A DNA stretch of 64,000 nt from Neopestalotiopsis rosae (lineage: Eukaryota; Ascomycota; Sordariomycetes; Amphisphaeriales; Sporocadaceae): positions 4,526,001 through 4,590,000 of the forward strand of contig JALGAS010000006.1 in NCBI GenBank assembly GCA_023078685.1, in the 5' to 3' direction. Shown here piece by piece: positions 1 to 60,784 of the stretch. A model generated the notes under the pieces. The model was given only the letters and a program-made list of their open reading frames with translations, was not told the origin of the DNA and made no database searches. Every line of letters starts with the position of its first letter. Positions within the stretch are counted from its first letter, which is position 1. Both the position numbers and the translations under genes were made by a program.

Positions 1-446
1 TGTTCAGCCTCAGATGACTCCGTAAAATACATCCGTTCAGAGGGAGTTTGATCAAGTAATGCTATTCCAGAATTGCTGCAAGTTATACCCATATTAGGTA
101 AGTCCGATAAGTCGCAACACTATATCCTAAGGAGGGTGTGTTGGGTTGGGCAGCAGCGCTTCGTTCGGTGCCGACAACGCTGCAAGGCTGCCGCGTTGGC
201 TCCTGAATGGTACCCAAATCCGGACCTGAACGCTCAGCCTCCTGTGGGCGGCATATCCCCGCACTACTCTGTACATATTCCTCTCTTCTGACATTACCAA
301 GCATCACTTCCTGCTCGTCTAGGCATTCTGCTCCCAAACCACAAACTACGCGTGTCTACCGTCATCATTCGGGTTGTCGTGCTTAGAAATTTGTTCCGTG
401 ATATTTGGTTTCAGACTTGCTGGTGTCTTCACCTTCGACTCTCAAC
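1..446. other. Left-edge stretch without a recognisable gene
   Basis: No ORF here resembles a known protein. A TTTCAG at about 408-413 just upstream of the first gene could be the 3' splice site of a 5'UTR intron. Otherwise I see nothing in it. Confidence 0.4.
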
Positions 447-3400
447 ATGTCATCTCCTCTATTTGGAGCTGCTGAGAGAGGAATGACTGATACTGTCCGC
501 AAACTCATTGAAAATGGTAACGAAGTTAATGTTGTTAATCAGTCTGGCTGCACACCACTCTGGCTGGCAGCAAGTGAAGGACACTCGGAGGTCGTGCGAA
601 TATTACTTGAACATGAGGGTACTGTGCACAACATCCGGAACCATGTTGACTACTCGCCAATGGAATCAGCGGTTGAATGCGGACGAGCTCAAGTATTGCG
701 AGTTCTGCTTTCGAATGACGCTGTCATGGCCGAAGCTGCCGAGGACAAGAAACGGCTACTGTTCCTAGCAGCACAATACAACCACGTGGAGACCTTGAAA
801 GTCTTACTGGACCAGCTTGACGCAAAGGTCAATACACAGGACGACCAAGGTCATTCTTTACTTGCGTTTTCCGCATCCGTGGTAAATGTTGGTACTGTGA
901 AATTCCTACTTCAATATCCGAATATTGATGTCAACCTTCGGGACACTGTCGGCCGCTGTGCACTTTCGCACGCGATCCGTCCTGGCAACTGCGGAGCAGA
1001 GCGAGAAATTCATCCATCATCGCGTGTTGAGGCGCAAGCCATTGTGGTAAATGCGATTGCCAGCCATCCAGATATCGACACCAACTCAAAAGATGACGAA
1101 GGCCATACACCTCTCTCACTTGCCAAAGACTCGGGACATTGGCCATTGGTGGAACCAATCCTTTCGCACATCAAAACCAAGGTCGGCACAGAAGACGATT
1201 CAGAGCGGACGATATCCCTCGGCACTGTAATCGATATCATGACTCCTCGTACCACTTTCCCGTTCGAAGAGGACAGATCTCAATACACTGATGAAGTGTT
1301 CCAATATTTTTTGAGGAAACGGAACTTCTTAGTAGATTGGACGCAAGAGGACGCTTCAGCCACACTTCTGTATTCTCTAGAACATGAGATACTGGGTGAT
1401 GCACTTCTAGAGACCATACTCCAGCAATTTCCTTTAAACCTACCGGGCCACGATCGACTGTTGAATTCACTAGTTGCGATGTTGCTAAGGAAGAGAAGGA
1501 AGTCTGCCACGGAAATCGTCTTCAGATACAGTACCTTGGTCCCAAATCTAAGTAGCGATGAATGGCGATCTTGGATCGAGGCTGGCTTTCAGCGAACTGA
1601 CACACGCCACTTGGATGATTATTGTCATGTCCTATGGATGCTTGTTGAAAGAGACACCAGGTTTCCAATGTGCAGGAATGAGAGAACTGATAACATTCTC
1701 GGCACCATATTGCTACGTGCAGCGAGCTCACGATATGGTGATCGAATCTTCAAATCCCTGAGTGGGCGGGAAAATGTCAACTTCAACTACAGGGACCTTA
1801 GAAACTGCACAGCATTATGGCACGCCGCTAATAAGGGAAGACTGGACAATGTAGAGCAATTGCTAAGCATTGGAGATCTCGAGGTTCATCATGAAGATGA
1901 CACTGATCATGAACCAGCGGTCCTGAGGCTGCTCAAGGTGTATGAAGCTTTAACGCTGAAAATGCGCAATGATCCAGAATATCCCGGGTACCAAAACGAT
2001 TGTATCAAGGTCAAGAAGCTTATACAGTTTCTTTTGCGAAATAACACGACACCTGCGAGAAATTTGTTGTTGATACAGGCGGTAACGCTAGGTCTGGAAG
2101 AAGCTGTTGCTCTCCTGCTCGGATGTGCAGGAATTGATCCTGATGCAAAAGGAGACAATGATGCAACGCCACTCATCATTGCTTCGATGAATGGTCGTAA
2201 AGCGATTGTTCAAATACTCCTGAGTGACTCAAGAGTCATCCCAACGCTTGTAGATGAGTATCAACGCTCAGCACTACATGCAGCCATACTGAGTAACCAC
2301 GTTGATATCGCTTCCTTACTCTTGGGGCGCGACAAGATCACCTGGACTCTCTTCTGCAAGAATGGTCTAGTCGATGAACTCATGTTGCTTGTCGAGGCCG
2401 GACTTGACTTGTATACACGGGATCCTAAAGGGCAAACACCACTGCATCTGGCATGTTTGAATGGTCATGTGAGAATGATTCATGAGCTTGTCAAGACTGG
2501 TCTCGACGTTAATCTGGAAAACAACTATGGAGAGACGCCGTTGCGTTTGGCCATCAATTCCAAACAAATAGATGCAGTCAAGGCCCTCATAGGAGGCTCG
2601 GCGGATATAAAAGGCATCACCAGAGATGACTGGCTCACCCTTTCTCACGAATATGGTATGACAGCCGTTCTCCAAATATCAAAGAATGCACGTGGTGAAA
2701 GGGCGTTGCACTTCAATGATGCTGCAGATGCTCCAACTATCTTGGACACGACTACTGATACATACCGTCTGATGTGAGTATTGGCCATCTCGGGCCAAAG
2801 AATGTTCGAGATAAATTCTGACAACTGGTAGATCGTACCACGATCAGATAATGTTAATGTTAAACCTACCACTTCCCATTGGAGATGCTTTAGGCGATGA
2901 ATCAAGACAAGTTTTTGCTACTGGCCTCCCTAGGGATGGAGTTGCATATTTCGGGGCCAGACTTAAGACACCCTTCAGACGATCTGAACCGGGTGCTTCC
3001 GAGCTGACAGTGTCTTGGCACAATGAGCGAGTTACGTGGAAAATGCACAATATCACGTCTGAAGTGCTGGGCGGACAACCAACATGGGAGACTGTGTGCT
3101 ACGCAAGTTCACTACCGTGCGGTTGGATTCCTGATACCGCTTCACACTTTCTTGAAATGCTCATTCTCGAAGCTGAGCGAGGCTGGATCCTATTTCTTGA
3201 CCAAGCTGATGAGTATCTGACCCAACAGGTATGTTCTTCTACTCGCACTTTGTACACCATGCATGTTCGTGTGAGCTGATGCTGACAGTCCATCATTGAC
3301 TCCTAGCGAAGTAGACAAATCGATGAGAGAGGCATGAGTCCTGCTTTGATCGATGGCCTTGCCAAAGATGCACAAATATGGGCTCGACTTCGGACCATGC

Positions 3401-26447: not shown

Positions 26448-27351
26448 CTTGAGGCGAACAAGTTGTGTGAGGTATAGGAGACCCTGTATATATATATGAC
26501 GGTGATCCGTGAGGAAACAGACGGGAACCAGAGTATCAGCAGACAGACCGTGCCCGAATCCCAAAAGTCACTGGACAGATCGCAATCTTCCCAAGCTTGG
26601 CCGCCGCCGTTGGCATTTGGCGCATGGCGCAGGGTTTTTCGCTAGTGCCGGCGTGTGGTGAGCTTGACCCTTTTCGGCCCAAGCTTCATATGGTCCTGCA
26701 AGGGGCCAAGGCAAGGACTTGTCTTGGCCGTGAAGAATATGTGAATTGTTCTTTTGTTTTGATTCTTTCACAATACAAATAATAAATACGAGAATAACAG
26801 TTCTATTCAATTAATTCATTAGTCCTCCCATGTCCGGCCAATTGATTTGTTCTTGCTAGACGAATGCATGGCACGTGAACAAGATGTACGGCGGATAGCT
26901 GCAAATTGTCTGTACTGTGGTAAGCCGAGAGTTCCCCACCACGCATGCTTATAGTGTATCAATATCACGGCTTTGATTAACTGACCGCTGCCTGCCCTGC
27001 TAGCAAGTGTTTGAACAGCTGCGTGACGTTCACATGGAAGACTTTCGAGAGGTAATATTTGCAGAGTGAGTCAAGAATGAGCGTTGCAGGATTGGGTATG
27101 ATTATTATTCTTCTTTGGGTCATTTCATATTGCAGTCGTTGTCATCGTCTGCTTATGTATGATATCACGCCCCAAGCCCTGATTTTCCATAGACAACATC
27201 CGCCACTCCTCGGTGGATGCGTATGCGGACTTCGGTATACATTTTGCTGGGGTCTAGTCTTGCCGTCTAATTCTATTTTTTCGGACTGATTGCGGCGGTA
27301 AGTGAAATGGTTGAATGCAGCCATCATGCCCTTCTATTCGTTTCTTTAGAC
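26448..27351. other. Intergenic with a relic of the paralog-array upstream region
   Basis: Holds the promoter of the two-RRM gene. A stretch at about 26975-27030 (CTGACCGCTGCC ... TTGAACAGCTGCGTGACGTT) is visibly related to the upstream DNA of the paralog at 28322 (about 28475-28540: CTGACTGCTGCC ... CTGAACAGCTGCACAACGTT). This indicates a further decayed or deleted copy. Confidence 0.45.
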
Positions 27352-27523
27352 TCAAAGTCCAATATAAGATTTCTCGCACGCGAGTTCGCTGGGAACGAAC
27401 TCATTGCCGTCCTCAGCGGCAAACAAATACCTGTTATTTTCCGTTGCTCCGAGGATTGCGCGACTCGCATCTGGGACGTAATCATACACGACTATTGTCG
27501 GCCGACTGTCAACGGAGGCATTA
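27352..27523 (-). pseudogene. Third, truncated member of the small-protein array (last exon only)
   Basis: The minus frame from an ATTGCAG acceptor at 27524 is open to a TGA at 27352-27354. It reads NASVDSRPTIVVYDYVPDAS ... LFAAEDGNEFVPSELACEK, aligning with exon 3 of the two intact neighbours. No counterpart of exon 1 or of exon 2 (RRPQRLYLKV) is found in the 170 bp before the next copy. The exon itself has no stop, so the truncation may be recent, or it may serve as a donor for gene conversion. Confidence 0.65.
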
Positions 27524-27693
27524 CTGCAATAATAGATTTAAGTCAGAGATGAGGAAGACTGCACATTTTCAGCGCTTATTATTATCATTATTATGATCAT
27601 CCCCCTCAATATCATTATTCGTTGTTTTCTCATGATAGTCATCAGAGTCGTCTTTTGATGTCTTCTTCTCCCTTCTCAAGGTTCTCTGGTGAA

Positions 27694-28322
27694 TTACCAG
27701 GGGCCGTTGTAAAATGCCGGGTAAATCAATTCGCAGGGCACAAACTCATCGCCACCGTCGGCGACAACAAAGAGCTGGGCTTGCTCCTCTACTGCCCGGA
27801 GGATGGCAGCACGTGCGTCAGGGCCGTAATTATGTACGACGCGTGTCGGCCAACTGTCTATGTTGGCGTCACTGCAACGACAAATGTTAGTCCAAGCTCC
27901 AGTAAGTAGTTGTCTCTATAAGTGAGCAATAGAAGAAAATACTAACAAGCTGGTGCGAATAATTTCGCGCACAGCGCGGCGAAACACTGCAAACTCAGCG
28001 TCGCCGAGAAAATTCTTGATTCCCGTAAACTGGCAATTATCGAGAATTTTGTTCACCACCTTCATCGCATTGTGTACCTTGAGGTACAGTCTCTGTGGGC
28101 GCCGTGCGCCGTTAAGCACTATCAGTCCACACGAGTTAGCAAGCTCGAGTTTTAAATGACATAGGGCAAAAATAATACAAATAATACAAATTAAATTTAG
28201 AAAGGAAGAATCATTGAAAAGCGCCAAACTTTCTTTCGAAGATGGAGATAGAAAAAAAAGAATTGCTTACTAGGTTGTAAAGCCTGCTTAATGGGCTCGT
28301 TGTTGGGGTCCGGGGTGGACAT
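27694..28322 (-). CDS. Small uncharacterised protein, tandem copy B (3 exons)
   Basis: Predicted 133 aa: exon 1 28271-28322 (MSTPDPNNEPIKQALQP), exon 2 27947-28118, exon 3 27694-27871. Intron 1 has donor GTAAGC, branch GCTAACTC and acceptor GATAG; intron 2 has donor GTTAGT and acceptor TTGCAG. Phases (1 and 2) equal those of copy A, and the reading frame is intact. Conserved blocks are RRPQRLYLKV--AMK-V-KIL, an acidic helix ending VREIIR, WPTR--HNY-PDA--AIL, and a tail ADG-DEFVP-EL ... GPW. No signal peptide, membrane helix or cysteine pattern is seen; it looks like a small soluble mostly helical protein. I do not recognise the family. It is head-to-tail with copy A, start codons 1244 bp apart, with related upstream DNA. 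Confidence 0.72.
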
Positions 28323-28940
28323 TGTCAGGTAATGGTTAATGTATGTTTGATTGAATGATCTATCAGATCAATGATCAAGCATACGCAGGCCAAACAAAGA
28401 AGAGAAGAAAAAAATGGAGGGGCCAGACAAGTCACAGTATTGAATGTAAATAAATGTGTTGTTCCTATCTGTCTACTGACTGCTGCCAACCCGACTGGTA
28501 AGAGCCTGAACAGCTGCACAACGTTGTCGTTGCCATCTCAACAATTTTCTCAAGACGAAATTCGTAATATGAGGCGGAATGGAAGAGCTGAAGACCATTG
28601 GAGATGGTCCGGGAAGTTGTGTGGACGCAGAACGCGCGCGCATCATGGGCTCATCCCCATCATCATTGATGTTGTCATCATCCAGAAACTTCATGCCCTG
28701 CTGGGTACCCCTGAAAAACATACAATTAGCCACCTTCATGGAATTTTTTCATCCCAAAATCCAAATCCTTCTGGGTGTTCAATAGGCAGCGTTATAGAAT
28801 ACTTGGTATTCATGGCGGAAACACAAAAGCCCAAGGAAGACATTTGAGCGAACAGTTGAAGAGAAGGCAGGAAGTTGCGAAGTTCAGTGCTGGGTATATT
28901 TATCATGGTCTCGTGATCGTTTTATTTACAATGCTTTCAT
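28323..28940. other. Promoter of array copy B
   Basis: Contains the segment shared with the upstream DNA of copy A (compare GGCCAGACAAGTCAC ... TGACTGCTGCCAA near 28430-28495 with GGTCAGACAAGTCGT ... TGACTGCAATCAG near 29620-29690). The open plus frame 28371-28847 overlaps it and is probably spurious. Confidence 0.45.
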
Positions 28941-29566
28941 TCATTTCGGCCAAGGGCCGGTGTAGAATCGACAAAAAATGAGCTCCGACGGGACGCACTC
29001 GTCACCGTCAGCAGCAGCGAATAGCTCAGGCTGTTCCTGCAGTGCCTTCAGGATGGCCTTGCAGGCATCCGGCACATAGTTATGCAAGGTACGGGTGGGC
29101 CAATAGTCGATAGTGGCGTTACTGGAACCATAAATATCAGAAAAAGATGTTCAGTGGGTGCATTCATTGACGGGCAGTTGAAATACTGACTAGTCTGCGC
29201 GAATAATCTCGCGAACTTCATGGAGGAAGTCCGTGAACTGGGCTTCGTCAAGCCAGTCTCTTATTCCAGTATACTGGTCATCGTTCAGAATCTTCTTAAC
29301 GGTCTTCATGGCTAGTGCGACCTTCAGATACAGCCGTTGTGGCCGACGTTGTGCGTTGAGAGCCGGTCTAGCGTTACTGGTGGTGACATTGGTGGCAGCT
29401 GATTATCGCAATAAGTCAGCAACCGTCAAATTGTGAGACTTCGTGCATCTTTTCAGATAAAAAATAATTCAATAATATCTTCTAAGATTCCCTGCCAGAA
29501 CTAGAGAGAAAAGAAGGAAGAGACAGAGGGAAGAGGCTTACCATTGTTCTCTGTAGGTGCAGACAT
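28941..29566 (-). CDS. Small uncharacterised protein, tandem copy A (3 exons)
   Basis: Predicted 137 aa: exon 1 29542-29566 (MSAPTENN), exon 2 29191-29398, exon 3 28941-29121. Donors are GTAAGC and GTCAGT; acceptors AATCAG and TTCCAG; introns in phase 1 and 2 exactly as in copy B. The sequence carries the same blocks: RRPQRLYLKVALAMKTVKKI, TGIRDWLDEAQFTDF, VREIIRADYNATIDYWPTR, HNYVPDACKAILKAL and ADGDECVPSELIFCRFYTGP. By eye more than half of the residues agree with copy B, and most exon-2 differences are conservative. No known domain recognised. Two copies preserved with matching introns and few damaging changes argue for selection on the protein. Cell location and role are unknown. Confidence 0.75.
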
Positions 29567-30543
29567 TGTGATGTTTGTCTGATATATCAAATGCATACCA
29601 CGAATAAAAGAGGGAAAGGTCAGACAAGTCGTGATCTGAACTGTGATAAATAGTCGTTACCTAACCGTCTGTCTGGTGACTGCAATCAGTCTGGCCGGCG
29701 AGGGCCTCGACAGCTGGACAGCTTCATTTCCATCCAATGTATACTCAATCCCAACATCTGATTGGCCAGCCGCGCGTTGTCTGCTCTGGCAACTCATTGT
29801 GACCCACATATCTGCCATTATACCAAGGCGGTCTGGACAGAAACAGGGTGTGTGGCGGCCTTTTGCAGTTCTTGGCTGCTGCCCGGTTAGATTCTGCCTT
29901 TTCCAGTGGCCAATAGGAGCATATGCAGCACTTAAAAACACCAGTTTCGATAATGTTGCAAGAATACTCTCCAGGTAATAAAAGAAAGCTGAAAGAAGAC
30001 GGGGTATGCACGATTTATATCATATATGGCACTCCGATTTGATCTGACTCCTAGTACAACTCATCATATGAGTTTACAGAGTCGATGAGCATGACTGGAT
30101 TTGTGAGGCGTATTTATTTGTTGCCAATGGCAATTTCTGGTTTTGTGTGTGTTGTGGTACGTAACAAAGCTTCAACGACTCAATGCTTTGATAGTTCACG
30201 TCATGGACGGACAGATCAGACAGATACAAAGGGTGTGACTCGAAGTTGTGATGTGTGCTGCAAGGTCTCGATCAGGCTTGCCTTGTGACTGAGCTGCCAG
30301 GCGCGAAGATCACTATTCATCTTGGGAAGGAAAACTTTCTGGCGTAACTCTGGCTACAACCTCAGGAGGAGCAAACAACAACGATCAGATTGAAGACTTT
30401 CAGTTGATCAAGTTGAGCATGGAAGCTGTTGAGAGTTTCGAGTGGAGAGATACGCCCAGAGGTGTAGGAGATTGAGAAAATGTCATGAACAGAATTTATT
30501 TTGATTTGATGTACAGAGATTATTGTTAATGGTCCCCTAACAG
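29567..30543. other. Promoter of array copy A and spacer
   Basis: The first about 150 bp repeat the upstream DNA of copy B. Beyond that I see no gene or structure. Confidence 0.4.
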
Positions 30544-59808: not shown

Positions 59809-60784
59809 TCAGAAAGGTAGGGTAGGTAGGATAGTAGGAAGAGTGACCGAAGGCAGAGTAGTCGGAATTGTAGGTACGATAGTAGGAAGAGTGACCGACG
59901 GCAGAGTAGTCGGCAGTGTAGGTAGAATTGTAGGAAGCGTTACCGAAGGCAAAGAAGTTGGAAGTGTGGGGAGGATAGTCGGAAGAGTGACCGAAGGCAG
60001 AGTAGTCGGAAGTGTAGGCAGAGTAGTAGGTAGAGAGATCGATGGCAGAGAGGTCGGCAGAGTAGGAAGAATTGTAGGAAGGGAAATCGTAGTTGGCAGA
60101 GAGATAGACGTTGTCAAAGAAGTACTTGCTGCTGGCAGCGTGTTGATGTAGTACGAGATATCGTCAATGGCTACCGAGCCCAAAACACCACCGACAAAGG
60201 TAGCAGCAAATTTGACGTAGGAAAGACCAACGAAGTTGTTGAAGTAAGCCGGAGAGAGGTTGTTAAGTGCTCCGCCGCTGGGGGTGAAGTAGAAAGGTTG
60301 GTAAACAACCAGGACCCCACGCTTGTCGTAGCCTGACACTGCCAATTTGCAGCCTACTGGCTTGTTGGATGAATCGACGCATCCAAAGAACAGTGAGGAG
60401 AGAGTGAAGTTGCCCGTCTTGCTACCGGAAAACTCAGAGGTGATGACAGGGCTGCTAAGTCCTTTGGTGACATTACCAAAGGCAGCGACGTTGGTGCCTG
60501 ATCGGGGAGCAAGACCAGACAATAGTCTCCTAGTTCCAGCGGTGACAGCAGCTTGTCATAATGTCAGTATCATCCATTTCAGAGTGGTTGCAGATTTCAT
60601 TACCAAGTCCGTTAAATTGTAGGCCACCATAGTAACCAATTGGGCTTGTGCCAAGACTTGTTGTGCTCAATCGTTCAAAGTCTGCAAGACCCTTGAAGAG
60701 ATCTCGAGCTGAAATTTCTTGGACAGGTGCCGCATATACAGCGGAAGTGGCGAGCAGAGCCCAAGTGACGATGGACTTGAACAT
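59809..60784 (-). CDS. Secreted protein with C-terminal Pro/Thr/Leu 16-residue repeats (2 exons)
   Basis: Predicted 307 aa: exon 1 60604-60784, exon 2 59809-60551. A clear signal peptide (MFKSIVTWALLATSAVYAAP) starts it. The globular middle contains ISARDLFKGLADFERLSTTS, SLFFGCVDSSNKPVGCKLAV (two cysteines 8 residues apart) and VYQPFYFTPSGGA, a pattern seen in a family of fungal secreted or surface proteins of unknown function. The last about 90 residues are about five units of T-L-P-T-S/T-L-P-S-V-T-L-P-T-I-L-P, each 16 residues (48 bp). No GPI-anchor signal is seen at the C-terminus, so it is probably released or held in the wall. The Thr/Ser-Pro content suggests heavy O-mannosylation. Confidence 0.78.
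59812..60100. repeat. Coding minisatellite, 48-bp unit
   Basis: About five imperfect 48-bp units within the C-terminal repeat of the secreted protein, visible on the plus strand as recurring GTAGGAAGAGTGACCGA-like blocks. Units differ by point changes only, so copy number could vary between strains. Confidence 0.7.

Follow-up and report, generated by a model that had tools for sequence, protein, structure and literature searches.

The closest named relatives of the genes described here are NCBI entries annotated as hypothetical proteins: G7054_g12163 (P0003) and g12162 (P0001) of Neopestalotiopsis clavispora, which are 96% and 97–98% identical to genes A and B, respectively, and PFICI_13837 of Pestalotiopsis fici, which is 54% identical to B. 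A and B lie, with a partial third copy (C), in a 64,000-nucleotide stretch of Neopestalotiopsis rosae (assembly GCA_023078685.1, contig JALGAS010000006.1), referred to below as the window (C14:4526001-4590000, C14 being the contig that bears it); the genome searched comprised 53.8 Mb in 17 contigs. More distant hypothetical proteins of Monosporascus, Eutypa lata (UCREL1_656) and Diatrype stigma share 20–30% identity with the pestalotioid proteins. They have the LNPARRPQRLY collar, the predicted helix order and, inferred from the ends of unspliced frames, the phase-2 intron site seen here, and differ from A and B in carrying a conserved RRERAAMPKA stretch. The family is real, is undescribed in the libraries and literature searched, and is older and larger than the two-copy array first implied. 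We give an even chance to the fuller reading, in which small, soluble, helical adaptors working inside the cell form a so far undescribed family of the Xylariomycetidae that evolves by birth and death, with A and B as intact members under selection and C as a remnant.

Gene B (29566–28941, 137 amino acids) and gene A (28322–27694, 133 amino acids) were each modelled on the minus strand with three exons, at the following window positions:

29542–29566, minus strand: gene B, exon 1, with the ATG at 29566 and a protein start matching P0001
29191–29398, minus strand: gene B, exon 2, encoding the RRPQRLY motif, helix 1 and most of helix 2 (helices taken from the model of the A-like protein P0003)
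28941–29121, minus strand: gene B, exon 3 with stop
28271–28322, minus strand: gene A, exon 1, with the ATG at 28322; P0003 is equal in length
27947–28118, minus strand: gene A, exon 2
27694–27871, minus strand: gene A, exon 3 with stop

The two ATGs are 1,244 bp apart in tandem arrangement, the introns of both genes are in phase 1 and then phase 2, and the second-intron donors are GTCAGT in B and GTTAGT in A. External support for the model of A came from P0003, also of 133 amino acids (96% identity over 131 columns), and for that of B from P0001, which tracks B to about residue 119 (98% over 116 columns) and is then annotated with another 3′ end. The original prediction of two intact head-to-tail copies (133 and 137 amino acids, 1.24 kb apart) with identical intron phases and unusual, matching second donors was thus confirmed in these particulars. 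Among the shared blocks that it listed, RRPQRLYLKV, VREIIR and WPTR..HNY.PDA are present in both proteins; ADG.DEFVP.EL is exact in A only, B reading ADGDECVPSEL.

Selection was assessed from the comparison of A with B, which are 72% identical at codon positions 1 and 2 and 36% identical at position 3. By the NG86 method the nonsynonymous divergence (dN) was 0.34 and the synonymous divergence (dS) was not computable; across 15 pairs, dS was not computable in 7 and ranged from 1.9 to 4.8 in the other 8. In a neutral test of 1,000 simulations at the A–B nucleotide divergence, amino-acid identity averaged 32% and peaked at 41% (observed for A and B, 57%), and the frame stayed free of stops in 2.7% of the runs. 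The coding sequences of A and B are, by these comparisons, under purifying selection, and the earlier claim that their preserved frames imply selection stands on both the protein identity and the contrast between codon positions. Repeat-induced point mutation was rejected as the cause of the divergence, the composite index being negative throughout (array, −0.67; A, −0.09; B, −0.50; C, −0.33).

Nine family loci were found in the genome: three on C14 including the lone exon C, three on C16 (C16a, C16b and C16c), and one each on C10, C15 and C3, the last two very diverged (these single genes are named by their contigs). Exons 2 and 3 of B matched six and seven places, respectively, namely A, B, exon C, the C10 gene and the three C16 genes (3045–3049 kb), and queries with A exon 3, P0009, P0012 and P0005 turned up nothing beyond these. 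A 110-residue piece of the Eutypa protein, which recovered none of these loci, gave weak matches, two collinear ones on C15 and a single one on C3. The C15 gene was modelled with a single phase-2 intron (126 amino acids) and the C3 gene with two introns, the second in phase 2 (138 amino acids). In single comparisons with the Eutypa protein, C15 was 31% identical over 98 residues (E 5e-19) and C3 33% identical over 93 residues (E 2e-14), and the two matched each other at E 7e-12. A Diatrypaceae–Monosporascus profile matched C15 at E 2.4e-15 and C3 at E 3.6e-10, a pestalotioid profile at E 1.3e-8 and E 1.9e-5, and in each of these four comparisons the genuine protein outscored all 100 shuffles (best shuffle, E 3.6e-4). 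Weak matches of a P0058 query on C10 (E 0.13) and C15 (E 0.15) were not counted as family loci. The tandem array first described therefore exists, as far as A and B are in tandem, and forms one corner of a dispersed nine-locus family with relatives in other genera.

A phase-2 intron separates helix 2 from the D.WP linker in all eight intact genes, and in six of them pairwise alignment placed the split codon on one common residue of the Eutypa protein. The C10 and C16 genes have two exons and lack an intron at the position of intron 1 of A and B; C3, with three exons, has its first intron at a different site. The unusual second-donor type of A and B recurs in C10; the other phase-2 donors read GTAAGT (C16a, C16b and C15), GTAAGC (C16c) and GTGAGT (C3). 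Unspliced frames from Diatrypaceae-like assemblies (P0058–P0062) stop at the phase-2 intron site, where their ends probably reflect a donor, as would be expected.

With E limits of 0.01 and 1, the second and third protein-database searches returned 23 and 60 proteins, respectively; 54 of the 60 were at E up to 1e-3. By organism, the 60 divided into 19 Pestalotiopsis or Neopestalotiopsis proteins, six of Monosporascus, one each of Eutypa lata and Diatrype stigma, and 33 without an organism name; all five named genera belong to the Xylariomycetidae, in which Neopestalotiopsis is placed in the Sporocadaceae (Amphisphaeriales). The search relied on shared five-letter words and similar protein lengths, so these figures do not establish absence from other fungi. 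The Monosporascus, Eutypa and Diatrype relatives were found at one per strain, and profiles of the pestalotioid and Xylariales (Diatrypaceae–Monosporascus) clades matched each other at E 6.2e-14. In a tree of 31 rows, A paired with N. clavispora g12163 (support 82/73), B with g12162 (100/93), C10 with g9114 (100/99) and C16a with a protein of Neopestalotiopsis sp. 37M (100/99), and the Xylariales rows separated at 100/100. These pairings suggest that the A, B, C10 and C16a lines are older than the splits between these Neopestalotiopsis species. One further database protein, P0057 (129 amino acids, ENA), is a single open frame in which a piece resembling the last exon precedes one with the collar and helix 1, an arrangement that two neighbouring domain copies, or two in one protein, would produce.

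Searches against described families were negative at the sensitivity used. In Pfam-A nothing exceeded the curated cut-offs: the best match of B was SirC_C (13.8 bits; cut-off 27) and that of C3 was DUF359 (13.4 bits; cut-off 25), A and C16a gave no match, the 21 members of A3 reached at best E 0.043, and eight more members and C15 fell below cut-off. Four members (P0003, P0005, P0053 and P0009) were compared with NCBIfam, PHROGs and PADLOC, with no match below E 0.001 (best E 0.046, best E 0.21 and none up to E 1, respectively), and no PDB sequence matched below E 0.05. No paper on the family was found by title or by the start of the abstract, a search mostly confined to non-subscription papers, nor any for the locus tags PFICI_13837, PFICI_08695 and UCREL1_656. 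The claim that the family cannot be placed in any known domain accordingly holds at that sensitivity. The array had also been called the best candidate in the window for something undescribed; 'undescribed' is fair, and an unusual mechanism is unsupported.

Phage, viral and bacterial origins were examined and rejected. For a phage origin, the PHROGs result given above applied; for a viral one, the A4 scan of viral contigs gave 23 pattern matches with no relative among them, and the best BFVD match was at E 0.44. A bacterial origin was tested by a P0053 scan of genome contigs, which detects close relatives only and in which none of 80 pattern matches was a relative. A transposon origin was checked through Pfam only, with no match.

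Two structure models with the same helix order were obtained, with predicted local distance difference test (pLDDT) scores of 81.8 and 74.6. In the predicted fold, a disordered N-terminal tail precedes three helices. Helix 1, which is long, would be capped by a basic collar, LN..xRPQRL[YFH].K, and followed by helix 2, also long; the linker D.WP.....[ND]Y.PD would lead from helix 2 to helix 3, and the chain would finish in an acidic segment, DE.VP.EL. A fold search with the models gave no match above noise. The best-ranked resemblances, all weak and below the noise level that the tool states for helical models, were to sigma-factor region 2, the TFIIB core and the Set2 SRI domain. It is unlikely that the protein is a nuclear helical domain tied to transcription or nucleic acid, packing like one of these three and binding DNA, RNA or polymerase. 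A broader version, in which an old fungal helical domain outside the searched libraries joins the transcription machinery in a similar manner, with C15 and C3 as its conserved core and the array as a recent diversification, we regard as highly improbable.

Protein properties were calculated for 28 proteins (6 from the genome, excluding C15 and C3, and 22 from the database). By hydropathy, no membrane segment was seen (19-residue mean never above 1.35) and, by hydropathy alone, no signal peptide (within residues 1–40, the highest 12-residue mean did not exceed 1.70 in any of the 28), so that the protein is predicted to lack secretion; cysteines numbered 0–3 per protein. Around helix 1, 26 proteins carried a positive net charge, and all 28 were net negative in their final part. 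These values bear on whether the family consists of unconventionally secreted or host-directed effectors, which would account for its expansion in plant-associated fungi. Small size, the many copies in pestalotioid fungi and the presence of strawberry pathogens within Neopestalotiopsis (PMC13215550) agree with such a role. The absence of a signal-peptide-like N-terminus, the few cysteines, the constraint on A and B and the occurrence of members in P. fici and Monosporascus CRB-8-3, both listed as endophytes (PMC7407469), speak against it, and we hold it to be very unlikely.

The family protein would most probably act as an intracellular protein-binding adaptor that docks by its basic collar and its acidic end; both the role and the choice of surfaces are inferred only. 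In pestalotioid fungi, genes would have been duplicated locally, and the copies would then have diverged or been lost, as the family grew. Several points weigh against this picture of one bipolar adaptor family sharing a phase-2 intron. The split codon falls in an alignment gap in C10, and in C3 it is displaced by four residues, in a gapped part of the alignment. The direct whole-genome matches of the Eutypa query to C15 (E 0.012 and 0.14) and C3 (E 0.099) were weak, genome queries with C15 and with a 97-residue part of C3 each recovered themselves only, and the first acceptor of C3 was picked by homology from three frame-keeping candidates. The two structure models are not independent, the alignment for the second having held both clades, and B and P0008 have a net charge of 0 around helix 1.

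Copy C, which was absent from the original prediction, is the third copy in the array, and blocks of related DNA lie upstream of the genes:

27352–27523, minus strand: copy C, last exon only, with an acceptor and a frame open to the stop; no match for exon 1 or 2
29618–29734, minus strand: upstream block of B, similar to 28421–28537
28421–28537, minus strand: upstream block of A
26980–27030, minus strand: third, partial upstream block, downstream of which no gene copy was found

In copy C, the W and H of D.WP.....H.Y, both invariant in a ten-sequence alignment, are replaced. At 50%, its amino-acid identity with A exceeds the 33% of neutral runs and suggests a period of constraint in its past; its open frame was retained in 21% of neutral simulations and is by itself little evidence. 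Its position in the tree is uncertain (support 85/13, long branch), and it may alternatively serve as an alternative last exon of gene A. The upstream blocks of A and B are 66% identical over 122 columns (E 2.5e-6), as expected from the earlier proposal that upstream DNA was duplicated with the genes, and 26980–27030 matches 28475–28525 at 75% over 51 columns (E 4.9e-5); 30 dinucleotide shuffles gave one match in total passing E 0.01. The missing exons and lost invariant residues of C would also fit a family of dispensable duplicates, mostly drifting, with A and B heading for loss as C is. So would P0022 (73 amino acids), which has a B-like last exon and a first part in another frame than in B, which would mean either a disrupted B in some isolate or an error in the assembly. 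The frames of A and B are intact, against the 2.7% expected under neutrality, and the proteins are 96% and 98% identical to those of N. clavispora, and general drift is therefore an improbable account of the two genes.

Gene context is of little help for function. The array is flanked by an RRM frame and a fungal-rhodopsin frame, and the C16 trio by a P450 frame on one side and, on the other, an NPHP3_N (NTPase) frame at L021:8683-9603 (minus strand). Within 5 kb of C10 lie a Ypi1-type phosphatase inhibitor and a tannase/feruloyl esterase frame; C15 neighbours carboxylesterase and ankyrin frames, and C3 a GH30 frame. The sequence CACAGCAAC occurs, on either strand, within 600 bp upstream of all four C10 and C16 genes (L021, L022) and not upstream of A or B; upstream of C16a and C16b the reading is GTTGC.CACAGCAACC. 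Elsewhere in the window, a 48-base tandem repeat (59822–60081; 5.4 copies, 80% matches) lies inside open frames of both strands, and a long ankyrin-repeat frame of 791 amino acids occupies 402–2774 (plus strand).

Lineage-expanded families of small hypothetical proteins are common. This one stands out by a fold predicted to be stable, by strong conservation of a motif and by an intron that ties together members at about 20–30% identity. The family offers a clean handle: its domain is small and soluble, its surfaces are conserved, and no partner has been assigned to it. If a core partner such as RNA polymerase proved true, it would be a new domain in a core process; otherwise it would be a tidy case of birth-and-death evolution.
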